Shown here: in pieces, positions 6,151 through 18,230 of the stretch
Layout: the number at the start of each line of letters is the position of its first letter
How positions within the stretch are numbered: the stretch's first letter is position 1
Source: Candidatus Gastranaerophilales bacterium
Lineage (GTDB): Bacteria > Cyanobacteriota > Vampirovibrionia > Gastranaerophilales > Gastranaerophilaceae
NCBI GenBank assembly: GCA_017415185.1
Contig: JAFQHZ010000018.1
Coordinates: forward strand, 1 to 32,510
Length of the DNA: 32,510 nt
Reading direction: 5' to 3'
Program-made: the position numbers and the translations under genes
Notes under the pieces: generated by a model
What the model saw: only the letters and a program-made list of their open reading frames with translations
What the model was told of the DNA's origin: nothing
The model's database searches: none

Positions 6151-6789
6151 CTAGTCTAATTTAATAGAATTTGATTTCAAATAATCAACAAATTTACACT
6201 GCATTTGTTCAGAATTATCATTGCAAGAAATCGTATTTAAAACACGAATATTACCATCAAATCTAACCCCGATAATAAATGCATCATTTTCAAGAGTTTT
6301 ATTTTCATCCCATTCAGGATACAAAACAATTGGAACAAGATTTCCAAAAGAAGGGTTGTTCATTATTCCAAAAGAAACAAAATCGCTATCAGGAACGCCA
6401 TAAACAACACCATCATCATTTAAAAAACATTGAGTTGATGAAAAAGTTCCTTCATATAATTCACAAGGAATATCATTTTTCATTACATTCAATTCATATA
6501 TCAAAGCTTCACGAAATTTTGAATATGGACCATTGAAACCAATTGTTTCGCCAGTGCCTTTAATTGTTATCGCATGAGTATTTAAAAAACCATCGTCACT
6601 TGGATATATAATCGCATTATTCAAAAGCCTGCTAATAGCACTTTCAATGTTTGCATAAGCTTTTTTTGCTTTTGCTTTGTCTGTGTCAGGCATGATGTTT
6701 GTTATATTCATTATTGTTAAAGCAAGCAAAAAGCCAACAACAATAATAACCATAGAAGTTTCAATTAAAGTAAAAGCTTTTTTCATCAT
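6151..6789 (-). CDS. Prepilin-like protein, ~212 residues
   Basis: N-terminus MMKKAFTLIETSMVIIVVG: textbook prepilin, cleavage A^FTLIE. The chosen ATG at 6789 shares one base with the TAA stop of the preceding gene (TAATG), pointing to translational coupling; ATG 6786 is equally possible, and a GTG at 6795 would lengthen the leader by two residues. Conserved positions shared with the 5481 paralogue include IYPSDDGFLNT, a central C...GVVYGVPDSDF, and IGVRFDGNIRVLNTISC followed by QC and DYL. It is the fourth gene of the six-gene minus-strand pilin operon. It most resembles a pilin subunit of ordinary size. Confidence 0.85.
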   Translation of the reverse strand: MMKKAFTLIETSMVIIVVGFLLALTIMNITNIMPDTDKAKAKKAYANIESAISRLLNNAIIYPSDDGFLNTHAITIKGTGETIGFNGPYSKFREALIYELNVMKNDIPCELYEGTFSSTQCFLNDDGVVYGVPDSDFVSFGIMNNPSFGNLVPIVLYPEWDENKTLENDAFIIGVRFDGNIRVLNTISCNDNSEQMQCKFVDYLKSNSIKLD

Positions 6790-8576
6790 TACCACTCAAT
6801 CATTATTGCGCCACTAGCACCATCCCCTGCCATAGAGTGAGATTCAGCATAATCATACGCATTATTTGACAAATAAACTTCTCTAAGCGGAACAACATTT
6901 CCATTTGTTGAAATAAATTTAATTTGAGGCTTAGCATAAGACAAAGGAAGCCTTGTACCTGCTTTGTTCCAAACCATAGCACCAGAAGCGCCAGAAGAAC
7001 CAGGAGTTGTTGCAGGAGTTATTGCAGAACCCAAAGGAGCAGAAATACCAGGGCTTAAATTATGCAATTTAAAATCACTATTCAAAATAACATTTGGTAA
7101 TAAACCATTTTTACCATAGAAATTTTGTTCTTTTGATAAATCTTGTTGACTTGGAATATCGATATAGTTTTCTAAGACTCTTGCTTGGGTGTTTACCCCG
7201 CCTTTACCGCCTTTTGCCGTAATTGTTTGATCGCCAACATTTGTTGACACAACAAGTGTTGTATCGCCACCATCTTCACCATCAAAAAATCCAGCAGAAC
7301 CGCCACGTCCGCCTAAGCCAAGAGCAGATTTTGGAATAACAATTTCATTTTGCTTATCTTTGCTTATAAATTTACTTTCAAAAACAGTTACCTCACCAGG
7401 CTGTCCAGCAACGCCATCATATATATTTGCAAGATTTTTTGTTAAAGCAAATCTAAAACCTTGGTTTGCGCGAACAACATGTTCTTGACCGTTATAATTA
7501 ACAGCAAATGAAACGCCTTCGTCAATATTTGTGTAAAAAGAGTCATAACCACTGTTTATCATCGTATAGTAGCCAACAGCGCTATATGGTCTTGGTGCAT
7601 AAAAACTACATCTGCCATCCATATTTGCTTGATATCTGTTTTGATTTCTAGAATCCCTCATGGAATTTTTAATACTTGCACAAAAATAATTATAATAAGG
7701 ACAATTTCTAACAAGAGAGCCATCTTTAAAATATCGAGGCAAACCACCATAGCATGTTATATTTATATCAGTATAAGTATCGCCAGATGTATTGCCAATA
7801 TAATTTTCATAAGTGCTTGATGTTACTTGACGAAGAGCATTTCTGATTTTGACGTGGATATCTCTTACCCTATCAGGAGTTTGAAAAAGATTATCATAGC
7901 GATTTTCGGCAATTTCCCTGTATTCAATGCTTTTTCCTAGCAATTGTTTAAAATTTTTAAAATAAGCATCAGAAGACCCAATTAAATCAAATTTTCTCAT
8001 TGCACCAGACGAGCCGCCAGCAGGAGAAGAGGCTTTAATCGAAATAGCTAATTTAGCAAAAAAGTCATTATAAATGTCTTTTTCAACCGTTGCTTGGTCA
8101 ATATATTTATTTTGCATTGCGAATAATTCTGTAAAATTAGTTAAATTTTCACCAACAACGATAGAATCTTCGCCATTTTCTTCAACGGGCGCATTAAAAT
8201 TTAGTTCTGCTTTTGGTAATGACCCTCCGCCACCACCTCCAATTAAAGTGATTTTAAAACTATTTGCTTGTTTTGGAATAGTAAATACGCAAGAACCATC
8301 TTTTGTCTGGTTTAAAGCAGGATTTTCATCAATATCGCCGTTGGTTTTATATTTAACCGTAACTTGTTTTAAAACCCCATTTGGGTCGATATAGCACAAA
8401 AACCTTCCCTTTGATTGATTGGCATTAATTTTGCCATCTTTTGACATACCAGTTGTATATTTTGTATGAGATTTTGTTAAAACTTGAACAGAAGCCATCA
8501 TAACAAAAGAAAGCGTTGTGATAACCATCACAATCAAAACAAGCGCCATTGCCTTCTTTTTTCGTTTATTTACCAT
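6789..8576 (-). CDS. Glycine-rich pilin-like protein lacking Glu5 (PilX/GspK-like N-terminus)
   Basis: 595 residues. After a basic stretch (KRKKKA) comes MALVLIVMVITTLSFVM, a pilin-type helix, but with no Glu at the position expected after a cleavage site. This is the pattern of PilX/GspK-type minor subunits. It shares with the two genes upstream a conserved block: CY-x-D-x-NG, then C-x-FT-x-P, then a β-strand ending in GGGGGG (near residue 115), more Gly-rich loops (GLGGRGGSAG, KGGKGG), and an ending GASGAIMIEW at the very C-terminus. ATG 8576 overlaps the upstream gene by seven bases. I infer it caps a small tip complex formed with the two neighbouring glycine-rich prepilins, as GspK does with GspI/J, but this is not shown by sequence alone. 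Confidence 0.75.
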   Translation of the reverse strand: MVNKRKKKAMALVLIVMVITTLSFVMMASVQVLTKSHTKYTTGMSKDGKINANQSKGRFLCYIDPNGVLKQVTVKYKTNGDIDENPALNQTKDGSCVFTIPKQANSFKITLIGGGGGGSLPKAELNFNAPVEENGEDSIVVGENLTNFTELFAMQNKYIDQATVEKDIYNDFFAKLAISIKASSPAGGSSGAMRKFDLIGSSDAYFKNFKQLLGKSIEYREIAENRYDNLFQTPDRVRDIHVKIRNALRQVTSSTYENYIGNTSGDTYTDINITCYGGLPRYFKDGSLVRNCPYYNYFCASIKNSMRDSRNQNRYQANMDGRCSFYAPRPYSAVGYYTMINSGYDSFYTNIDEGVSFAVNYNGQEHVVRANQGFRFALTKNLANIYDGVAGQPGEVTVFESKFISKDKQNEIVIPKSALGLGGRGGSAGFFDGEDGGDTTLVVSTNVGDQTITAKGGKGGVNTQARVLENYIDIPSQQDLSKEQNFYGKNGLLPNVILNSDFKLHNLSPGISAPLGSAITPATTPGSSGASGAMVWNKAGTRLPLSYAKPQIKFISTNGNVVPLREVYLSNNAYDYAESHSMAGDGASGAIMIEW

Positions 8577-10150
8577 GATATAACAACAGCTCCTCCCATA
8601 CCACTACTACCGTTATAAATTTCAACAATTGGTTCAACAGTTGAATTTAAAACAGTCTCATAAGTATTATTTATATAATCAGGTCTTTCATAAGAAATTT
8701 TATAAAACGGATCATATTTAACAAGCGAATTTCCACCGCCACCGCCTGAACCAAAACTTTCTTCATTAGGCGAAGTAGATTTTGTGCAAACTCCAGCCGA
8801 ATCGCAATGAGCTCCTAATCCTTTATATAAATTTTGCTGCGCAACTCCGTTTAAAACCGTATTTTTTACATAATTGGACATTTCACCATCAGTCGGAATC
8901 CAAGATTGCGTAGCATTAGTAAGCCTAACATTAGAAAGAGTATAATAATTTTCACTTTGGACTAAATGAGAAGAAGGAATTCTGTTAAGAGCAACTCCTG
9001 TATAGGTAATCATATTTGCACCCGGATCACCGCCCCAAGCTGTCAAATTAAAATCTTTAAAATTTGTATTTTGACCTTTTAGACCTGGCTTTCCACCATC
9101 ACCAATATCGCTTTTTGAAATCAAAACAGTTCTTCCAGAAAGATTTAAAGTATTATTTTCAACAGTTGTACCAGCCTTTCCGCCGTGACTTGATCTTGGT
9201 CTTGGAAGAGTTTTTGTATAACTTACTTTATCTCTTTCTGTCAAGGTAACAACAGAAATAGCTTTTTTATTTGTTATGTTACCTCCAGAATGACATACTG
9301 GAGAATCGGAAACTGTTCTATCTTTTCCCGCAATACTAATATTTGTATCTGAAAATCTTGCACCTTGCGCAAGAACATAATCTGCACCTCTAAGAAAAAC
9401 ACCAGGACCGGCAGAAACCAAAGGAGAAGTTGAAGCTTCAGGGCAATCTTTTTCATTAAAACCATTAAATAATTTAAAATTATCGCCTAATCGGAAATTT
9501 GTCCTAAAAGCACAAGTTGCACCATTAATTTCTGAGCTTTTTCCACCTCTTACAAAAAACGAACGATTATTTAGGGCGATTTTTTCAAGCGCACTTGATT
9601 CAAAAACAGACGCAACATTTGATGGAATCATAAAATATCTGTATGCATTGTCGCATTTGTAAGTTGGGCAACTATTCAAATAAAATTTAGTAGTGTTATT
9701 TGAGTACTCAAGCGGAGAATACTGCGCAGAATTTGCCAAACAAGCAGTATAGTTATTTCCAGGTTGAGATATAGAAGAATTTCCAGCCCTTAAAAGATTA
9801 TATGAGAAACTAACAGGAGCATCTGACACCCAATAATCAGTCTTTTCTTCAGATATTTTTCCTCCGCCTCCGCCACCGCCAATAACAGCGACTTTATAGT
9901 TTGAAACACCTGACGGGAAAGTAAAATTGCATTGTTGAATATTTTTTCTATGCTGAACAGTTCCATCCAACAAAGTAACTTTTTGATTTAAATTACCATT
10001 AACATCTTTATAGCAAGCAAAAGTTCCGCTTGAAATATCAGCAGCTACATTAACTTTTTTTGTAATTACTCCACCAATCATAATCATAACTACGCCAAGA
10101 ATAGTTGTAGACATAATTATTTCTATTAAACTTAATCCTCTTTTTTTCAT
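8570..10150 (-). CDS. Glycine-rich prepilin-like protein, 526 residues
   Basis: N-terminus MKKRGLSLIEIIMSTTILG: cleavage G5^L, Glu at mature position 5, then a hydrophobic helix. After it come a CYKDVNGNLNQ segment, a C-x-FTFPSGV segment and a β-strand leading to a run of seven glycines near residue 95. Further Gly-rich loops follow (GDGGKPGLKG, GSGGGGGN), and it ends GMGGAVVISW. The FT-x-P-x-GV-strand-GGGGGG pattern and the final GGA-hydrophobic-W are, from memory, typical of the glycine-rich domain of phage tail and adhesin proteins. It lies 13 bases behind 10164 and overlaps 6789 by seven. It is probably a surface-exposed minor subunit; ligand unknown. Confidence 0.8.
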   Translation of the reverse strand: MKKRGLSLIEIIMSTTILGVVMIMIGGVITKKVNVAADISSGTFACYKDVNGNLNQKVTLLDGTVQHRKNIQQCNFTFPSGVSNYKVAVIGGGGGGGKISEEKTDYWVSDAPVSFSYNLLRAGNSSISQPGNNYTACLANSAQYSPLEYSNNTTKFYLNSCPTYKCDNAYRYFMIPSNVASVFESSALEKIALNNRSFFVRGGKSSEINGATCAFRTNFRLGDNFKLFNGFNEKDCPEASTSPLVSAGPGVFLRGADYVLAQGARFSDTNISIAGKDRTVSDSPVCHSGGNITNKKAISVVTLTERDKVSYTKTLPRPRSSHGGKAGTTVENNTLNLSGRTVLISKSDIGDGGKPGLKGQNTNFKDFNLTAWGGDPGANMITYTGVALNRIPSSHLVQSENYYTLSNVRLTNATQSWIPTDGEMSNYVKNTVLNGVAQQNLYKGLGAHCDSAGVCTKSTSPNEESFGSGGGGGNSLVKYDPFYKISYERPDYINNTYETVLNSTVEPIVEIYNGSSGMGGAVVISW

Positions 10151-10163
10151 TTTGTTTCCATCT

Positions 10164-11690
10164 TTACCAATTAATTATTATTGCGCCGCCAGCACCAGCG
10201 CCGCCGTTGCCTGCATAAAACTTATTGTTTGAAATATAAGTTGTATAAGAAGTTTTATTTAACTTTTGAATAGGAGTACTGTTGTTTTGCAAATTATAAG
10301 CAGAATTCAACTGAGTTCCATCTTGCAAAAAGAACGAAAGAACTTTATGTTCACCAAGATTTTGAGAAGTTCTAAAGACAATGCTTCCACCACCGCCTCC
10401 TGAACCGATTTTTGTTCCCGCAAGACCATCGCAATTTACACAACTGGAATTTTTGCAAACACAATTGCCTCCAATTCCGCCTGCACCGCCATCAAACTTA
10501 TTATCAAAATAGCCATTTTCACCTTTTCGAGTATAAAAATCGCCATCTATAACATGGTTTTCATTGTCGCTATCTTTGAAAATATGCTCCATCGGAAAAT
10601 CGACGCTTCCGCCCTTGCCGCCATAAGCAACAATATTTTCATTATTATCAATTTTAAATCTACTATATTGACCGTTATATCCGCTGCTATTGTAGATATT
10701 TAAATTTAATCTGTCTTTATTGTTAGAAATATTTCTTAATTCATTAAGAAGCCTGTCGTAATTATGAGGAGTGTCTTGAAGTCCATAATTAACCATGTTA
10801 ATAATAACAGGGTCAACTGGGCTTTTTATAATTGAGCGAAGTAAAGATAAATCATAACTATTTATATGACCATCACCATAGCCCATATATGTATCTGTTG
10901 GATGTTTTTTAGAGTATATTAAATCTTGAATAATTCCAAGAAGACTATAATAATTATTTAAATCTTCGCCATAACCACCCATGCCACCTTTTCCAACGCA
11001 ATAATCATATTCGCTTGCATCAGTAGGAATTTCAGTATTGCGACAAAAATTAATAACAAGCTCATCCTGCACAAAATTGTTTGCTAAACTTGAGCTTTTT
11101 GTGACAATTTGCCCTTGTTTTCCGCCTGCACCATAGTATAGAGCAATTGCCCTTTGCATTTTTTTAAGCATATAGCTTGCAACGTCAACTTCAAATTGTC
11201 CTGATTTGTATGAACAAAAATAATTATTACAATGACGAATATTATTTGAAACAGAAGAGCCATATTTTTGAGATAATGAAGGCAAAGTTGCACTATTCAA
11301 TTGTTCTTTTGCTGAACCTTCTTTTTGAATATCTACAACCTGATTAACATCGCTCACAGCGTCACGAGGCACAACGGGCATTGAGCCACCTCCGCCGCCA
11401 CCAACGGCAGTAATTGTGAATGAATTTACACCAGTTGGCCTTGTAAAAATACAGCCAGTTTGTGTTACATCTCTTTTTTGAGATAAAGCTGAGGAATTGA
11501 ATCTTTGTTGTTGATAAAGCCTATATGTATCAGTTACATCATCATATTCTGAAAAACACCTAAATTCACCATATATATTAGAAGAAGTCTTTGTTTTTTG
11601 AGTAGTTAAAGGCATAGTAAGCAAGACTACCGCAGTAACCAAAGACATACAAATAATTAATTCTATATACGAAAACGCAGGCTTTTTCAT
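10164..11690 (-). CDS. Glycine-rich prepilin-like protein, 508 residues (first gene of pilin operon)
   Basis: N-terminus MKKPAFSYIELIICMSLV: cleavage A5^F, Glu at mature position 5. The same plan as its two downstream neighbours follows: GEFRCF, then C-x-FTRPTGVNSF, then a strand ending in GGGGGG near residue 100, then Gly-rich loops (GKGGMGG, YGGKGG, GGAGGIGG, GSGGGGG) with a small CVC...C...C cluster, and the end GAGGAIIINW. The Shine-Dalgarno is weak. It heads a six-gene unit with gaps of at most 13 bases. The three genes look like ancient tandem duplicates that kept the glycine-rich domain while the middle diverged. The assembly machinery must be encoded elsewhere. Confidence 0.8.
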   Translation of the reverse strand: MKKPAFSYIELIICMSLVTAVVLLTMPLTTQKTKTSSNIYGEFRCFSEYDDVTDTYRLYQQQRFNSSALSQKRDVTQTGCIFTRPTGVNSFTITAVGGGGGGSMPVVPRDAVSDVNQVVDIQKEGSAKEQLNSATLPSLSQKYGSSVSNNIRHCNNYFCSYKSGQFEVDVASYMLKKMQRAIALYYGAGGKQGQIVTKSSSLANNFVQDELVINFCRNTEIPTDASEYDYCVGKGGMGGYGEDLNNYYSLLGIIQDLIYSKKHPTDTYMGYGDGHINSYDLSLLRSIIKSPVDPVIINMVNYGLQDTPHNYDRLLNELRNISNNKDRLNLNIYNSSGYNGQYSRFKIDNNENIVAYGGKGGSVDFPMEHIFKDSDNENHVIDGDFYTRKGENGYFDNKFDGGAGGIGGNCVCKNSSCVNCDGLAGTKIGSGGGGGSIVFRTSQNLGEHKVLSFFLQDGTQLNSAYNLQNNSTPIQKLNKTSYTTYISNNKFYAGNGGAGAGGAIIINW

Positions 11691-11865: not shown

Positions 11866-13296
11866 ATGAAAAAAAGTATTTTTATAATATCAGCTTCAAT
11901 ATTACTTATTTTGAGCACAGCAATATTTTTCTTATTGAATCATAATCATTTTTTGATAATTAACAATACAATTGAAGATATTAAAATAAACAATTATTCA
12001 ATCTTTTTATACAAAGACAAAAATCAGCCTTCTTATGAAGCAATGACCCTTAATACAGTTTCAAAAACAAAGATTGACATAGAAACAAAAGAAAATGAAA
12101 TTATTCACAAAGAAATAAAGCTAAGAAAATTAAAAGCAAATAAAGCGATATATATTTATTCTCTAAAAGATAAAAAAGCATATAAAATCAATCTAACACC
12201 TGAAAATTTACCAAAATACAAAATTAAAACAAAACCAGGACACACAAAAGGATATTTATTCACTGCTCCAATTGAAGCAATTAATTGGTCAAATGCAATT
12301 GCTATAATAATAAAAACAAATGGAGATTTGATTTTTTATCATAATAATCCATACAAAGACATGTTACTGTTGGCAAATTTCAAAAAACACATCATGCCTG
12401 ATGGAACCATATATTATTCAATAAATATGAAAAAAAATGACGGCAAAACTATTGACTATTACGAATGCGAAATATTTCTTTTTGATAAAAACTTTAATTT
12501 AATTAAAAAAATAACTTTTCCGGATGGTTCATTAACAGAAAGTCATGTATTTGAAATGCTCGACAAGGATCATTATTTTTTAAATGATTATTACGAAGAA
12601 GACATCTATATTCCAGAATGGAAAAAAACCCTAAAAGCACTGCATGAACGCGTGTTTGAGTTCAAAGATGGCAAAGCAATACTTAAATTTGATACCAAAA
12701 AAAATCCTGAGCTATATAAACATCCAACTATAATATATAAATCATTCTGGACGCATATCAAACCAGGCGGACACCTTAATCACATACTCGTTGACCCAAA
12801 AGATAACAATTTAATTTTAAGTTTTGGATACTCGAGTTGCCTTGTAAAGATAGATAGAAAAACTGGCAAAGTAATTTGGATTCTTGGAGGAAAAAACGAT
12901 ATGTTTAACCTCAAAAAAGAACAAAGTTTTATTTTGCAACATGTTCCACAATTTACATCGGACGGATATCTAACATTTTTAAACAACAACTTAAATTTTG
13001 AAACAACAGGAAATAAACAATTTAGCTTACCAGGAGGAAGCAAAATTACAAAAATCAAAATTGATGACGAAAAAAGACAGCTAAAAGATTTCAGATCAAT
13101 TGAACTTGGAATGTCAATTGACATCATGGGAAATATACAAGAACTATCTGCAAATAGATATATAATCGGACAAGGACACAATCAATTAAGAATGTTTGCA
13201 GAAGAAAAAGACATAGTAACAGGCAAAACATATATGGTGCTAGATGTACCAGGATATGCAAACTATAAAGTATTACTATATGAAACATTAGACTAA
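11866..13296 (+). CDS. Arylsulfotransferase (ASST)-like membrane-anchored protein 1
   Basis: 476 residues. A single hydrophobic segment (residues 5-24) should anchor it to the membrane with the body outside. Residues ~30-125 form a β-rich N-terminal domain, then a propeller-like body: GYLFTAP (near 129), TNGDLIFYHNNP (151-162), DGSLTESHVF (220-229), HLNHILVDPKDNNLIL (303-318), KIDRKTGKVIWILGG (328-342) and FILQH (355-359). These match the order in arylsulfotransferases, which move sulfate from one phenolic ester to another without PAPS. The catalytic His (H359) and the HxN motif (303-305) are present. The Arg usually found in the 'SSR' strand is not: the region reads SFGYSS (319-324). So it may be inactive, use another residue, or have another role. 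It heads the sulfation operon; GAGGAG precedes ATG. Confidence 0.75.
   Translation: MKKSIFIISASILLILSTAIFFLLNHNHFLIINNTIEDIKINNYSIFLYKDKNQPSYEAMTLNTVSKTKIDIETKENEIIHKEIKLRKLKANKAIYIYSLKDKKAYKINLTPENLPKYKIKTKPGHTKGYLFTAPIEAINWSNAIAIIIKTNGDLIFYHNNPYKDMLLLANFKKHIMPDGTIYYSINMKKNDGKTIDYYECEIFLFDKNFNLIKKITFPDGSLTESHVFEMLDKDHYFLNDYYEEDIYIPEWKKTLKALHERVFEFKDGKAILKFDTKKNPELYKHPTIIYKSFWTHIKPGGHLNHILVDPKDNNLILSFGYSSCLVKIDRKTGKVIWILGGKNDMFNLKKEQSFILQHVPQFTSDGYLTFLNNNLNFETTGNKQFSLPGGSKITKIKIDDEKRQLKDFRSIELGMSIDIMGNIQELSANRYIIGQGHNQLRMFAEEKDIVTGKTYMVLDVPGYANYKVLLYETLD
12013..12272 (+). repeat. 260-bp near-identical block shared by the two ASST genes, copy 1
   Basis: Matches 13462-13721 with about six mismatches over 260 bases by eye, encoding residues ~50-136 of each protein. 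Flanking regions are clearly more diverged in both DNA and protein. Confidence 0.85.
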
Positions 13297-13314
13297 TTAA
13301 AACAAGGAATAAAA

Positions 13315-14742
13315 ATGAAAAAAGCAATAATAAAAATAGCCACCTTGGCAATAATACCTATTATTATATTTTTAGCATACTATCTAAATTGTGACCGCGT
13401 TGTAATAGTCAACAAAGCAATTAAAGACATTAAAATCAATACTTATTCCATATTTGCCCGTAAAGACAAAAATCAGCCTTCTTATGAAGCAATGACCCTT
13501 AATACTATTTCAAAAACAAAAATTGACATAGAAACAAAAGAAAATGAAATTATTCACAAAGAAATAAAGCTAAGAAAATTAAAAGCAAATAAAGCGATAC
13601 ATATTTATTCTCTAAAAGATAAAAAAGCATATAAAATCAATCTAACACCTGAAAATTTACCGAAATACAAAATCAAAACAAAACCAGGACACACAAAAGG
13701 ATATTTATTCACTGCTCCAATGAGAGTATCAGATTGGTCTAATGCCATAGCGCTAGCCATTAAGACAAACGGAGATTTGATTTTTTATCATAATAACCCA
13801 AATTACCCAATGAAGCTTTTATTTAATTTTCAGAAAATTAAACTAAGCAACGGCGAAGTTTATTATTCTATTAATATGGAATCAAAAAAAGGTCACTTAA
13901 CAAATTATTTTGATACAGAAATATATCTTTTTGATAAAAATTTCAACTTAATTAAAAAAATTACATCGCCCGATGGAAAACTATGCGAAAACCATATCTT
14001 TTACATGTTAGACAGAAACCACTATTTCATAAGTCAACATTACCCTGAGACAAGATATGCAAAAGAACAAAAAAGAAACGTTAAAATACTACAAGACCAT
14101 TTAAAAGAGATCAAAGACAATGATATTATTTTCGATTTTGATACAGGAAAACATCCAGAATATGCACTTAAATATAATTTAGTATATCTTCCCGAATGGG
14201 AATATATGGAGCCTTTCCATTTAAATGGAATGTTAGTGGATCCAAAGGATAACAATATTATAATCAGCGCAGGTTTTATGAGTTCTTTTGTAAAAGTAGA
14301 CAGAAAAACAAAAAAACCAATTTGGATTTTAGGCGGAAAAGGTGATATGTTCAATTTAGCTCCAGAGCAGCGTTTCATACTGCAACATTCGCCAATGCTG
14401 ACATCAGATGGATATTTTACTTTTTTAAACAACAACAACCAATTTAAAATTCCGGGCGACAAACAATTTTATCAACCAGGGAAGGCAAAAATTGTCAAAA
14501 TGAAACTTGACGAAAAAAATCTAAAAATTACAGATTATAGAACTTTTGAACTTGAAGACAATATTATGTTTCTTGGAAACCTACAAGAAATGTCTCCAAA
14601 TAGATATTTAATAGGTTATGGTGTTTCTCGACACAAAAATTTTGCTGCTGAAAAAGATATCACACAAAACAAGGACTATATGACATTTGAAATACCTGAA
14701 TATTCAAGTTATAAAATCACTCACCACAAAACATTAGACTAG
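13315..14742 (+). CDS. Arylsulfotransferase (ASST)-like membrane-anchored protein 2
   Basis: 475 residues, a tandem paralogue of the preceding gene with 18 bases between them. An N-terminal hydrophobic segment (residues ~5-23) acts as an anchor. The same propeller motifs occur in the same order: HTKGYLFTAP, TNGDLIFYHNNP, a SPDGKLCENHIF segment, FHLNGMLVDPKDNNIII, KVDRKTKKPIWILGGKGD and FILQHSPML. The HxN motif and the QH histidine are kept. As in the first copy, the strand that normally holds Arg reads SAGFMSS, so the Arg is missing here too; shared loss suggests it is tolerated or replaced. Residues ~50-136 are nearly identical to copy 1, while the rest is moderately similar. It precedes cysD by 11 bases in the same operon. 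Substrate unknown. Confidence 0.75.
   Translation: MKKAIIKIATLAIIPIIIFLAYYLNCDRVVIVNKAIKDIKINTYSIFARKDKNQPSYEAMTLNTISKTKIDIETKENEIIHKEIKLRKLKANKAIHIYSLKDKKAYKINLTPENLPKYKIKTKPGHTKGYLFTAPMRVSDWSNAIALAIKTNGDLIFYHNNPNYPMKLLFNFQKIKLSNGEVYYSINMESKKGHLTNYFDTEIYLFDKNFNLIKKITSPDGKLCENHIFYMLDRNHYFISQHYPETRYAKEQKRNVKILQDHLKEIKDNDIIFDFDTGKHPEYALKYNLVYLPEWEYMEPFHLNGMLVDPKDNNIIISAGFMSSFVKVDRKTKKPIWILGGKGDMFNLAPEQRFILQHSPMLTSDGYFTFLNNNNQFKIPGDKQFYQPGKAKIVKMKLDEKNLKITDYRTFELEDNIMFLGNLQEMSPNRYLIGYGVSRHKNFAAEKDITQNKDYMTFEIPEYSSYKITHHKTLD
13462..13721 (+). repeat. 260-bp near-identical block shared by the two ASST genes, copy 2
   Basis: Partner of 12013-12272. The next stretch of ~26 identical bases (around ggagatttgattttttatca) occurs 40-50 bases further on in both genes, separated by a diverged segment, as expected for patchy gene conversion. 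Confidence 0.85.
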
Positions 14743-14753
14743 AAAATAAAACA

Positions 14754-15626
14754 ATGGACAACTATTTAAAAAACTTAGAATACCAAGCAATAGATATAAT
14801 AAGAGACACTGTTTTTAACAATGACGTTGAAAAAATAGTAGCATTTTATTCAATTGGAAAAGATAGCAGTGTACTTTTACATCTTTTCAAAAAAGCATTC
14901 TACCCAAACAAAATTCCAATCAAATTTTTGCATATAGATACGGGCTGGAAATTTCCTGAAATGTATGAATTCAGAGAAAAAATTGCCAATGAAATTGATT
15001 TATTAATTTTTAAACATCCAGCCTGCTTGAATCCATACAAAGACGGAAGAAATTATACAGACATCATGAAAACGCAAGCTCTAAAAATGTCTCAAGAACA
15101 TTTTGGCTTTAAAATTGCTTTTGGTGGCGCAAGAAGAGACGAAGAAAAAAGCAGAGCAAAAGAAAGAATAATTTCAATAAGAGATAAAAATGGTTATTGG
15201 AATGCAAGAAAACAGAATCCTGAAATTTCGCCACTATATAACCCATTTTATTGTAACGACACAAGTTTAAGAGTTTTTCCACTATCAAATTGGACTGAAC
15301 TAGACATTTGGAAATACATTAAAGAAGAAAATATTGAAATTGTTCCAATTTATTTTTCGCACAAAAGAAAAGTCAAAATCACAACTCAAAACAATAAAGA
15401 ATTACTCTTAATTCCGCAAAAAGGCGAAAAAACAGAAGAACTGAATGTTCGCTTTAGAACGCTTGGCTGTTATCCTTTAACAGGGGCGGTTCGTTCAAAT
15501 GCAAAGAATATTGATGAAATTATAAAAGAATTAGAAGAAGTGCAATATTCAGAAAGAATTACAAGAGTAATTGATTATGATGCAAAAGGCTCAATGGAAA
15601 TTAAAAAGCAAGAAGGATATTTCTAA
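14754..15626 (+). CDS. cysD: Sulfate adenylyltransferase subunit 2 (CysD)
   Basis: 290 residues. It makes adenylyl sulfate from ATP and sulfate together with the CysN GTPase. The PP-loop YSIGKDSSVLLHL (residues 32-44) is the form typical of CysD, followed by LHIDTGWKFPEMYEFR, then FGGARRDEEKSRAKER, then FPLSNWTELDIWKYI, RFRTLGCYPLTGAV, and the C-terminus GSMEIKKQEGYF. All match E. coli CysD as I remember it, and the length is close to the usual ~300. Its TAA overlaps the next ATG by one base (TAATG), so translation is probably coupled. The lack of cysH or sulfite reductase nearby points to sulfation rather than assimilation as its purpose. Confidence 0.95.
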   Translation: MDNYLKNLEYQAIDIIRDTVFNNDVEKIVAFYSIGKDSSVLLHLFKKAFYPNKIPIKFLHIDTGWKFPEMYEFREKIANEIDLLIFKHPACLNPYKDGRNYTDIMKTQALKMSQEHFGFKIAFGGARRDEEKSRAKERIISIRDKNGYWNARKQNPEISPLYNPFYCNDTSLRVFPLSNWTELDIWKYIKEENIEIVPIYFSHKRKVKITTQNNKELLLIPQKGEKTEELNVRFRTLGCYPLTGAVRSNAKNIDEIIKELEEVQYSERITRVIDYDAKGSMEIKKQEGYF

Positions 15627-15859
15627 TGAAAACAGATACACACTTTGAATCATTAATAAAAAGTATATTATACAGAATTTTTGCAACAATTTCGACAATT
15701 CTTATTGCTTTTATTTTTACGCACGATTTCAAAATTTCAATAAGCATAGGGTCGCTTGAGTTATTTTCTAAAATAATTCTTTATTATTTCTATGAAAGAA
15801 TATGGCTATTTTTCAAAAAGAAAACAGCAAGAGGTGACAATGAGCAACAACATCTTTAA
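15626..15859 (+). CDS. DUF2061 small membrane protein
   Basis: 77 residues with two hydrophobic stretches (about residues 12-32 and 36-54). The opening SLIKSILYRIFATISTILIA, the central ISISIGSLELFSKIILYYFYERIW and the length fit the DUF2061 family, whose members are, from memory, often found next to or fused with sulfate-activation genes. Its start overlaps the cysD stop by one base, and its end overlaps the CysNC start by 20 bases, so it is an integral part of the operon. The function is not known; a role in sulfate uptake or in bringing CysDNC to the membrane is only a guess. Confidence 0.8.
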   Translation: MKTDTHFESLIKSILYRIFATISTILIAFIFTHDFKISISIGSLELFSKIILYYFYERIWLFFKKKTARGDNEQQHL

Positions 15860-17444
15860 TTTTATATGTTGCGGAAGCGTAGACGACGGAAAATCTAGTT
15901 TAATTGGTCAAATTTTATTAAACACAAATTCTGTAAAACAAGATGTTTTAGAAGATGCAATGTCTGCTTCTTTTGATAATGGCAGCGATTTTCTTGAACC
16001 CGGTCTTTTGCTTGATGGCTTATTGGATGAAAGAAAGCAGCAAATCACAATCGATATAGCACACAGATACTTTGATTATAACAATACACGTTATCATATC
16101 TACGATTGTCCTGGTCATGAGCAATATACCAAAAATATGGCAATAGCAGCAGCAGAAGCAAATTGCGCAATTTTAGTTATAGATGTTTTAAAAGGAATTT
16201 CTCCTCAAACGTTAAAACATCTTTCAATTTGCGCTCTTTTTCAAATTAAATATTTAATTATAGCCCTATCAAAATGCGATTTAACAACAAAATCAAACAC
16301 ATGGGATGAAAATATAATTCAAAAAAGAAAACAAGAAATAGAAGAAATTTTAAAACAATATAATTTTAACTATTCAATAATTCCGATTGATTCAATACAC
16401 AATAAAAATATCGACAAAGTTATTGAAAAAATAGAAGAATATAATTGGCTATATTTTGAAAGCAAAAAAAATAATTTTATAGCTCACGCATACTGTTCTC
16501 AATTTTGCAATGGCGAAAGATATTATTATTTAAAACTTTTAGACAAAAAAGAAATCAAAAAAGACGAAAAATTAAAACTTTTCCCTCTTGATAAAGAAGT
16601 GACCATTAAATGCGACAGCAATAATGGAACAATACAAATTCAAGAAGATATAGATATTGAAAAAGGAAACGCATTAGCGAACGTTAATCTTTTAGTAAGC
16701 AACAAAATTAAACATCACACATATTGGTTTGACGAACCAACAAACGAAATGATTTTTCATCATGGAACAATATTTGCCAATATAACAAAATACACTCAAA
16801 CACTAATAGAATTAGATAAAGCTATTTGTTTTAACAATATCAATGATATTAAAGAAAATGGCTTTGGAATAATTATCGATAAAGCAAGCAAAAAAACACT
16901 TGGAGTTAGTGTTTTTCTTGCTAATGATAATTTAATAAAAGTAAATCAAAAAGGAAAAATATATTGGTTTAGCGGATTGTCTGGAGCTGGAAAAACCACT
17001 CAAGCAATGAATCTATGGAGGGAATTTTCAATTAAACCAATCTTGTTAGACGCTGATGATGTTAGAAAAACCATAAATTCTGATTTAGGCTACACAAAAG
17101 AAGATTGTTATCAAAACATTGAAAGAATATCTCAAATTGCGCAACTTCTTTCAAATCAAGGATTCAATGTTATAGTAACTTGCATATCTAAATTTAAAGA
17201 ACAAAGAAAAGAAATTAAAGAAAGATTAAAACCAAATTTAATTGAAATTCTTGTTGATAAAAGTCTTGAAACACTAAAGAAAAACGACACAAAAGGTCTT
17301 TATAATTCACTAGGAACGTGCAATATGATACAAAACTATGAATATGGAAATAGCGTAGATATAATATTAAACACAGAAGAAAAAACCGAAAAAGAAAACT
17401 TTGAATATTTAATTGCACAACTAAAAAAACTGGAGGCTTTTTAA
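15840..17444 (+). CDS. cysNC: Bifunctional sulfate adenylyltransferase GTPase / APS kinase (CysN-CysC), compact
   Basis: 534 residues from ATG 15840, chosen because GAGGTG at 15830-15835 precedes it; an upstream ATG at 15792 lies inside the DUF2061 gene. The GTPase part has CGSVDDGKSS (residues 11-20), LDERKQQITID, DCPGHEQYTKNM (89-100) and SKCD (144-147) where NKxD is normal. A shortened, diverged β-barrel section (~215-365) follows. The APS kinase part has GLSGAGKTT (~379-387), LDADDVR, YQNIERI and a DTKGLY segment. The pair makes PAPS from sulfate: CysD+CysN form APS, CysC phosphorylates it. Typical CysNC fusions are ~630 residues, so this is compact, mostly in the barrel. Its TAA overlaps the next ATG (TAATG). 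Confidence 0.9.
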   Translation: MSNNIFNFICCGSVDDGKSSLIGQILLNTNSVKQDVLEDAMSASFDNGSDFLEPGLLLDGLLDERKQQITIDIAHRYFDYNNTRYHIYDCPGHEQYTKNMAIAAAEANCAILVIDVLKGISPQTLKHLSICALFQIKYLIIALSKCDLTTKSNTWDENIIQKRKQEIEEILKQYNFNYSIIPIDSIHNKNIDKVIEKIEEYNWLYFESKKNNFIAHAYCSQFCNGERYYYLKLLDKKEIKKDEKLKLFPLDKEVTIKCDSNNGTIQIQEDIDIEKGNALANVNLLVSNKIKHHTYWFDEPTNEMIFHHGTIFANITKYTQTLIELDKAICFNNINDIKENGFGIIIDKASKKTLGVSVFLANDNLIKVNQKGKIYWFSGLSGAGKTTQAMNLWREFSIKPILLDADDVRKTINSDLGYTKEDCYQNIERISQIAQLLSNQGFNVIVTCISKFKEQRKEIKERLKPNLIEILVDKSLETLKKNDTKGLYNSLGTCNMIQNYEYGNSVDIILNTEEKTEKENFEYLIAQLKKLEAF

Positions 17445-18193
17445 TGAATACTTTTTCAATGCTTATATATAGCTTTTCCAAATATTTAATAAATTATAAA
17501 ACCATAAAAGAAAATAACAATCGCTATCTTTCTCCTTATTATATTAGATGGCTAATTGACGAAGATAAAAAGGTTATTTTTTTCAATAATCCAAAAGTTG
17601 CCTGCACATCAATTATGGTTTCAATGTTTAATTGTCCTGAAATTCCAGACAGAGATTCATTGGTCCAAACACATTTATTTAATTCAAAACACAACATAAA
17701 AAGCCTCCCTAAAAATCTAGGGGAATATTATAAATTTGGTTTTGTTAGAAATCCTTTTGCAAGATTAGTTTCATTTTATGAAAACAGATATGAAAACAAT
17801 GTTTTAAAAACAAACGCAATGAACAATCTTGAACCATATTTAAAACATATTAATTCATTTGAAGATATGGTTATAAAAATTTCAAAAATTCCAAATTTTA
17901 TGTTTGACCCACATTTTGCAATGCAATATCCTAATTTTTATAGAAATGGAAAATGCATTGTAGATTTCATTGGAAAATTTGAATCGATAGAAGAAGATTA
18001 TAAGCCAACGCAAGAAAGATTCAATTTCCTTCCTCTTCCTCATTTCAATAAAACGCAAAAAACTAAAAAATGGCAAGATTATTACACAAAAAAAGCTCTA
18101 AATCTTGTATATAAAAAATACAAAAAAGATATTAAATTGTTTGGTTATGAAAAAGATTATAAAGAATTATTAGAATATATTAAATCTAAATAA
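17444..18193 (+). CDS. PAPS-dependent sulfotransferase (Sulfotransfer_2-like)
   Basis: 249 residues. FFNNPKVACTSI (residues 46-57) matches the 5'-phosphosulfate loop of carbohydrate sulfotransferases, and FVRNPFARLVSFYENR (100-115) matches the 3'-phosphate-binding segment (VRxPFxRLVSxY). A later FIGKFESIEEDY segment is also typical. It should use PAPS made by the CysD/CysNC proteins encoded just upstream to sulfate an acceptor, most likely a glycan. TGGAGG precedes the ATG, which shares one base with the CysNC stop. A mildly hydrophobic N-terminus is seen, but no clear signal peptide, so it is probably cytoplasmic or membrane-associated. The acceptor cannot be read from the sequence. Confidence 0.85.
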   Translation: MNTFSMLIYSFSKYLINYKTIKENNNRYLSPYYIRWLIDEDKKVIFFNNPKVACTSIMVSMFNCPEIPDRDSLVQTHLFNSKHNIKSLPKNLGEYYKFGFVRNPFARLVSFYENRYENNVLKTNAMNNLEPYLKHINSFEDMVIKISKIPNFMFDPHFAMQYPNFYRNGKCIVDFIGKFESIEEDYKPTQERFNFLPLPHFNKTQKTKKWQDYYTKKALNLVYKKYKKDIKLFGYEKDYKELLEYIKSK

Positions 18194-18230
18194 TAAAAGA
18201 GCCTATAAGGCTCTTTTATTATTTAGATTT
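18182..18230. terminator. Bidirectional terminator with 23-bp perfect arms spanning both stop codons
   Basis: Arms 18182-18204 and 18208-18230 are perfect complements around an ATA loop; the core is AAAAGAGCCT/AGGCTCTTTT. It serves the plus-strand sulfotransferase and the minus-strand zinc-ribbon gene. Both stop codons and the last three sense codons of each gene lie inside the arms. Confidence 0.92.

Follow-up and report, generated by a model that had tools for sequence, protein, structure and literature searches.

The stretch of DNA analysed here (the window: all 32,510 nucleotides of contig JAFQHZ010000018.1, assembly GCA_017415185.1, from a Candidatus Gastranaerophilales bacterium) is contig 13 of a 1.87 Mb genome. 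Between positions 11866 and 18193 it carries six genes on the + strand that form one unit, consisting of two genes for arylsulfate sulfotransferase (ASST)-like proteins, cysD, a DUF2061 gene, cysNC and a Sulfotransfer_2 gene. To judge from family matches and intact motifs, the operon very probably performs synthesis of 3'-phosphoadenosine 5'-phosphosulfate (PAPS) followed by PAPS-dependent sulfation. An earlier note on this DNA had named the same genes at these positions; all lie there, on the + strand, and are supported by family matches above the cut-offs. The features are:

11866–13296, + strand: ASST1, 476 amino acids (aa), ASST-like beta-propeller protein with a putative hydrophobic N-terminal anchor and a PF05935 match.
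12010–12270, + strand: codons 49–135 of ASST1, near-identical to codons 49–135 of ASST2 (about 13459–13719).
13315–14742, + strand: ASST2, 475 aa, a paralogue of ASST1 with 60% aa identity.
14754–15626, + strand: CysD, ATP sulfurylase small subunit, with a SIGKDS PP-loop.
15626–15859, + strand: DUF2061, 77 aa, predicted helical hairpin, proposed anchor of the PAPS-making enzymes.
15840–17444, + strand: CysNC, fusion of the CysN GTPase and adenosine 5'-phosphosulfate (APS) kinase in a short form, 534 aa, with P-loops GSVDDGKS and GLSGAGKT.
17444–18193, + strand: PAPS-dependent sulfotransferase (Sulfotransfer_2), with the 5'-phosphosulfate-binding (5'-PSB) motif PKVACTS and the 3'-phosphate-binding (3'-PB) motif FVRNPFARLVS.
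18185–18227, no strand assigned: hairpin terminator, a perfect 20-bp symmetric inverted repeat scored on the − strand.

Gaps of 18 bases (ASST1/ASST2) and 11 bases (ASST2/cysD) separate the genes ahead of cysD, and from cysD on each gene overlaps its successor, as had been claimed: the cysD stop codon (TAA, 15624–15626) overlaps the DUF2061 ATG at 15626, the CysNC ATG at 15840 falls within DUF2061 (stop 15857–15859), and the CysNC stop overlaps the sulfotransferase ATG at 17444. The CysNC start at 15792 given by the open reading frame (ORF) caller is probably too early, position 15840 being in agreement with related proteins. The operon ends at the strong 20-bp hairpin, on whose far side lies a convergently oriented zinc-ribbon gene. 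Promoter-like matches were found at chance level (40 against 39.7 expected), and no promoter was placed.

The enzymes of PAPS synthesis and use are well matched to their families. CysD scores 346.9 bits against NF003587 (NCBIfam), CysNC scores 127.9 bits for GTP_EFTU and 94.9 bits for APS_kinase (Pfam), and the sulfotransferase scores 74.4 bits for Sulfotransfer_2 (PF03567, cut-off 22). Nucleotide-binding motifs are intact throughout, including the SIGKDS loop of CysD and the two P-loops, DxPG motif and [NST]KxD motif of CysNC, and both PAPS-binding motifs are present in the sulfotransferase. The defining parts of a PAPS-dependent sulfation module are therefore all in place: CysD, the CysN GTPase and APS kinase, and a sulfotransferase with 5'-PSB and 3'-PB motifs. 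In CysNC the region between GTPase and kinase is compact, and Pfam recognizes no EF-Tu domains 2 and 3 there; the same compact middle is found in its 520–535 aa relatives from four family genomes, while the Mesorhizobium protein has 646 aa. The whole-length protein scores under the curated NCBIfam cut-off, probably because of this short middle. A reading of the locus as a defence system was discarded, PADLOC having returned only weak CysD matches to the BrxP and SspD models.

CysD and CysNC also serve assimilatory sulfate reduction, so that the operon could in principle supply cysteine synthesis, but this explanation is scarcely credible. A search of the whole genome with the sulfite reductase profile NIR_SIR gave 0 matches (the same profile matched in 11 of 14 control genomes), no CysH was found, the sole other PAPS_reduct match being QueC, and the operon itself closes with a sulfotransferase gene. 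As the genome is 97.5% complete, the absence of CysH and sulfite reductase is strong though not absolute. The module thus stands outside a reductive pathway, and activated sulfate cannot enter the usual reduction route. On these grounds assimilatory reduction was rejected, and the absence of cysH and sulfite reductase, previously noted for the locus, extends genome-wide. With motifs intact and no reductive branch, the proposed route from sulfate through PAPS to a sulfated product is upheld as a prediction.

DUF2061, which the earlier note had listed while its tie to sulfate activation went unseen, offers a possible membrane link for this chemistry. The window protein matches PF09834 at 63.6 bits (cut-off 23.1) and belongs to the family as a short helical hairpin; an AlphaFold2 model built from 38 sequences places two helices at residues 6–32 and 35–75, with a predicted local distance difference test (pLDDT) score of 85.7. 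Among 15 plasmid loci examined that encode DUF2061, eight have it at CysD/CysN (four in Mesorhizobium, three in Microvirga, one in Gemmatirosa). All four Mesorhizobium plasmids show the order nodB-nodC-nodI-transporter-sulfotransferase-DUF2061-cysD-cysNC, and elsewhere the association is covalent, with DUF2061 forming the C-terminal end of a CysN fusion on a Microvirga plasmid (L062:4573-6210) and the N-terminal end of an APS kinase fusion in Gemmatirosa (L061:5992-6732). CysN and APS kinase are cytosolic; the hairpin is therefore expected to have its two ends on the cytosolic side. These fusions and the gene linkage seen elsewhere give an even chance that DUF2061 serves to anchor sulfate activation at the membrane. 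A sulfate channel was considered as an alternative function, but fusions to CysN and CysC better suit an anchor. A literature search found no link between DUF2061 and sulfation by title or abstract.

A similar association emerges from viral contigs, where at least 538 of 600 matching stretches, among the matches listed, encode DUF2061 relatives. In the 80 best viral loci, which a single conserved motif had brought up, a match to APS kinase or sulfotransferase occurs in 26, invariably upstream of DUF2061 and on the same strand, and in 25 of the 26 at a distance of 0.3–1.4 kb. A near/far comparison of ORFs over 55 dereplicated loci served as internal control. Within 1 kb of DUF2061, APS_kinase accounted for 22/150 ORFs, CTP_transf_like for 22/150 and Sulfotransfer_2 for 4/150, and at 2.5 kb or more APS_kinase accounted for at most 1/149, not being among the 25 commonest families. 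The resulting enrichment (one-sided Fisher p 1.4e-6, assuming 1 far match) is to be read in the knowledge that contigs may remain related despite dereplication, that the near set was hand-trimmed to 150 ORFs, and that some APS_kinase matches are weak P-loop kinases. Five loci (L117, L132, L141, L164, L174) show an APS kinase, a small CTP_transf_like protein (GRxQPxHxGH) and DUF2061 in succession, within about 1.8 kb upstream, and such runs sometimes include sulfotransferase-like genes. The viral nucleotidyltransferase is a candidate minimal ATP sulfurylase, though it may have an unrelated role. No close relatives of this lineage's CysNC or CysD were found in viral contigs, CysD in phage-labelled records being only about 50% identical.

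Both ASST-like proteins belong to PF05935 (ASST1 48.1 bits, ASST2 40.8 bits, cut-off 24.2), and neither matches an NCBIfam model. Their active sites were mapped in an alignment with E. coli AssT, two proteins from the phylum, one from Rubrobacter and the ASST-like chain of the solved structure 9kf4, the roles of AssT residues being taken from PMC13426309. The nucleophile His436, which becomes sulfated, is retained in both paralogues together with His252, His356 and Asn358 (in ASST1 H359, H227, H303 and N305, respectively, with matching residues in ASST2). ASST1 H438, absent from ASST2, had been a candidate nucleophile and was dismissed, as aligning E. coli AssT maps His436 to H359, kept in both. 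Weighing against a working transferase, Arg374, conserved as arginine in AssT and the four other aligned ASSTs (5/5), is glycine in both window proteins (G321 in ASST1). Aryl-sulfate transfer may therefore be lost or altered, and for this reason the two are called ASST-like rather than filed as proven ASSTs.

Synonymous changes between the paralogues are near saturation, with a non-synonymous divergence (dN) of about 0.4, except in codons 49–135, where the synonymous divergence (dS) is 0.10. By this measure the two are an old paralogue pair, in which the low dS amid saturation points to N-terminal domains recently homogenized by gene conversion. Outside the converted block non-synonymous divergence is much lower than synonymous divergence, which places both proteins under constraint; they differ there at about half of positions, and the three catalytic histidines and the asparagine are invariant. 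Searches of genome contigs with ASST1 alone and with the ASST1/ASST2 alignment recovered no relatives. Each protein opens with a hydrophobic N-terminal stretch, modelled in ASST1 as a helix (residues 2–24) in a poor AlphaFold2 model (two sequences, few homologues, pLDDT 39.5), which makes membrane anchoring plausible; the quality of this model is too low to show the N-terminal beta-sandwich and six-bladed beta-propeller that mark ASSTs. The description of the pair as two membrane-anchored ASST-like proteins thus stands as to hydrophobic N-termini and catalytic histidines, and their competence is made uncertain by the Arg374 change.

Parts of the operon recur among relatives. CysD of the window type occurs in 5 of the 383 family genomes, and CysD-DUF2061-CysNC in three other family genomes (G087, G073, G212); a fourth (G112) has CysD-CysNC. 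All four encode a Sulfotransfer_2-like protein of 317–321 aa, scoring below the cut-off in G073 and encoded next to the module in convergent orientation in G112, and these proteins form a second, divergent family relative to the window sulfotransferase (L093–L097); in the G112 member the arginine typical of the 3'-PB motif may be missing (VYDDP). The sulfotransferase of the operon type occurs in 3 of 192 genomes of the order, the two besides the window genome being distant matches. In the genomes searched, the ASST pair is confined to the window genome, and the only other match to the ASST family is sub-threshold, in a protein that looks unlike an ASST. Looking for the gene set in related genomes, as the earlier note had suggested, thus recovers the PAPS-making core and not the ASST pair. 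In G073 (L020:12375-18155) a 78-aa remnant resembling a sulfotransferase comes after the PAPS module, and beyond it lies a cluster of aryl-polyene type, with ketoacyl-synthase, ketoreductase, ApeP-like dehydratase and acyl carrier protein genes; in that genome aryl polyenes might serve as phenolic carriers or be sulfated themselves.

The explanation we propose, a dedicated PAPS-dependent sulfation operon with a DUF2061 anchor and a second transfer by the ASST pair, is as a whole evenly poised between right and wrong. CysD and CysNC would convert sulfate and ATP to APS and then to PAPS, as strong family matches and intact motifs suggest. The two-helix DUF2061 hairpin, its ends in the cytosol, would hold CysN/CysC against the cytosolic side of the membrane, bringing PAPS production to the site of its use, and the Sulfotransfer_2 enzyme would sulfate a cytosolic or membrane-borne acceptor with PAPS as donor. 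On the outer side the ASST-like proteins would accept the sulfuryl group of a sulfated phenolic carrier, hold it as a sulfo-histidine (H359 in ASST1) and hand it on to a final acceptor, a step modelled on Cpz8 and Cpz4 of caprazamycin biosynthesis. This extracytoplasmic transfer, for which operon membership, anchors, retained histidines and the Cpz8/Cpz4 precedent speak, is possible, somewhat short of an even chance; the earlier note's proposal of a second transfer outside the membrane is in this sense plausible by the Cpz8/Cpz4 logic, with glycine at Arg374 in both proteins set against it. A broader formulation, in which DUF2061 is a general membrane-anchor subunit of PAPS-making and sulfotransferase complexes in bacteria and many viruses and the operon sulfates on both sides of the membrane, is doubtful.

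Several observations count against the proposed mechanism. ASST-like and PAPS-module genes come together in one genome only, and conservation therefore gives their pairing no support; other ASST loci examined in the phylum have no PAPS genes nearby. No phenolic-carrier gene, such as a type III polyketide synthase, was recognized in the operon or the scanned flanking ORFs. As to DUF2061, it is missing between CysD and CysNC in G112, is not described in the Bacteroides cluster BT_0411–BT_0416, and is unlinked to sulfate genes at seven of the 15 plasmid loci (Bradyrhizobium and six haloarchaeal). Finally, the term 'self-contained' previously applied to the operon is not borne out, since the genome search found no SulP-type sulfate transporter (other transporter families were not covered) and no match to the CysQ/inositol phosphatase family (other pAp phosphatases were not covered).

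Some of these points invite other explanations. The ASST-like proteins may have become anchored beta-propellers that bind a sulfated product or ligand and are no longer transferases, which would fit the glycine at Arg374 in both paralogues and the missing NCBIfam matches; that the catalytic histidines and asparagine stay invariant in such divergent paralogues makes this improbable. Alternatively, the PAPS branch might work apart from the ASST pair, the former in conjugating a small molecule or sterol for detoxification or signalling, like the PAPS cluster of Bacteroides, and the latter in shuttling sulfate between phenol sulfates (p-cresol, indoxyl) of host or dietary origin within the gut. 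Gut ASSTs of Bacteroides vulgatus and others do use such donors (PMC13426309), and BT_0411–0416 makes cholesterol sulfate in gut Bacteroides (PMC9417993). Nevertheless, independence seems unlikely: Arg374 is lost in both proteins, and with ASST2 ending 11 bases 5' of cysD in one operon, a shared pathway is favoured.

The surface glycan envisaged by the earlier note, whereby the Sulfotransfer_2 enzyme would sulfate a polysaccharide precursor and the ASST-like proteins would remodel sulfation outside, draws on two analogies. Animal Sulfotransfer_2 members are mostly carbohydrate sulfotransferases, and the DUF2061-CysD-CysNC module sits in Mesorhizobium operons for Nod factor, a glycolipid. However, no glycan biosynthesis genes occur in the operon or adjoining the related modules examined; the operon is flanked by prepilin-like, zinc-ribbon and housekeeping genes, and the adjoining glycogen synthase lies on the opposite strand beyond a terminator. 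A glycan target is thus unsupported and rather unlikely.

The operon has a GC content of 0.245–0.302 per gene, below that of its flanks (0.34, 0.32), which hints at a foreign origin. An attempt to use the neighbouring zinc-ribbon gene as a synteny marker across the genus showed a multi-copy, non-syntenic family, and so revealed no empty insertion site. On the − strand at 6789–11690 the window encodes three large glycine-rich proteins in tandem, at least two with prepilin-like N-termini, e.g., MKKRGLSLIEIIMSTTILG; only one has a Pfam match (Gly_rich_2, sub-threshold).

PAPS-dependent sulfation operons are known, and for their pairing with ASST-like proteins caprazamycin biosynthesis is the sole precedent found. 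The wider point concerns DUF2061, which fusions and gene order connect with sulfate activation in this lineage, in root-nodule bacteria and among numerous viral contigs. Should it tether the PAPS-making enzymes to the membrane, this hitherto unexplained domain would have a function, and many viruses would carry a sulfation cassette that could alter host surfaces.

Four known systems stand comparison with the operon. E. coli CFT073 AssT (PDB 3ELQ family, PF05935) belongs by sequence profile to the same fold family as the window ASSTs and has His436, His252, His356 and Asn358 in common with them, and differs in Arg374; the window proteins are also shorter, their hydrophobic N-terminus looks uncleaved, and their operon has no DsbL/DsbI partner genes. 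In caprazamycin biosynthesis the PAPS-dependent sulfotransferase Cpz8 and the PAPS-independent arylsulfate sulfotransferase Cpz4 act in one pathway (PMC4257720), through a triketide pyrone carrier for which the window operon and scanned flanking ORFs hold no counterpart; a PAPS synthesis fusion or DUF2061 is not described there, and the likeness lies in PAPS sulfotransferase and ASST-like genes standing together. The Bacteroides cluster BT_0411–BT_0416, which yields cholesterol sulfate (PMC9417993), is described with a putative sulfate importer (BT_0412) and without an ASST, and resembles the window in joining PAPS synthesis genes to a sulfotransferase in a gut bacterium, which the organism of the window probably also is. 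The Nod-factor sulfation operon of Mesorhizobium symbiosis plasmids (nodP-nodQ and a sulfotransferase) differs in its Sulfotransfer_3/1 enzyme as opposed to Sulfotransfer_2, in its full-length CysNC, in its nodBCIJ neighbours that supply the acceptor, and in having no ASST; like the window operon, it combines a sulfotransferase, DUF2061, CysD and CysNC in one run, with no reductive genes alongside.

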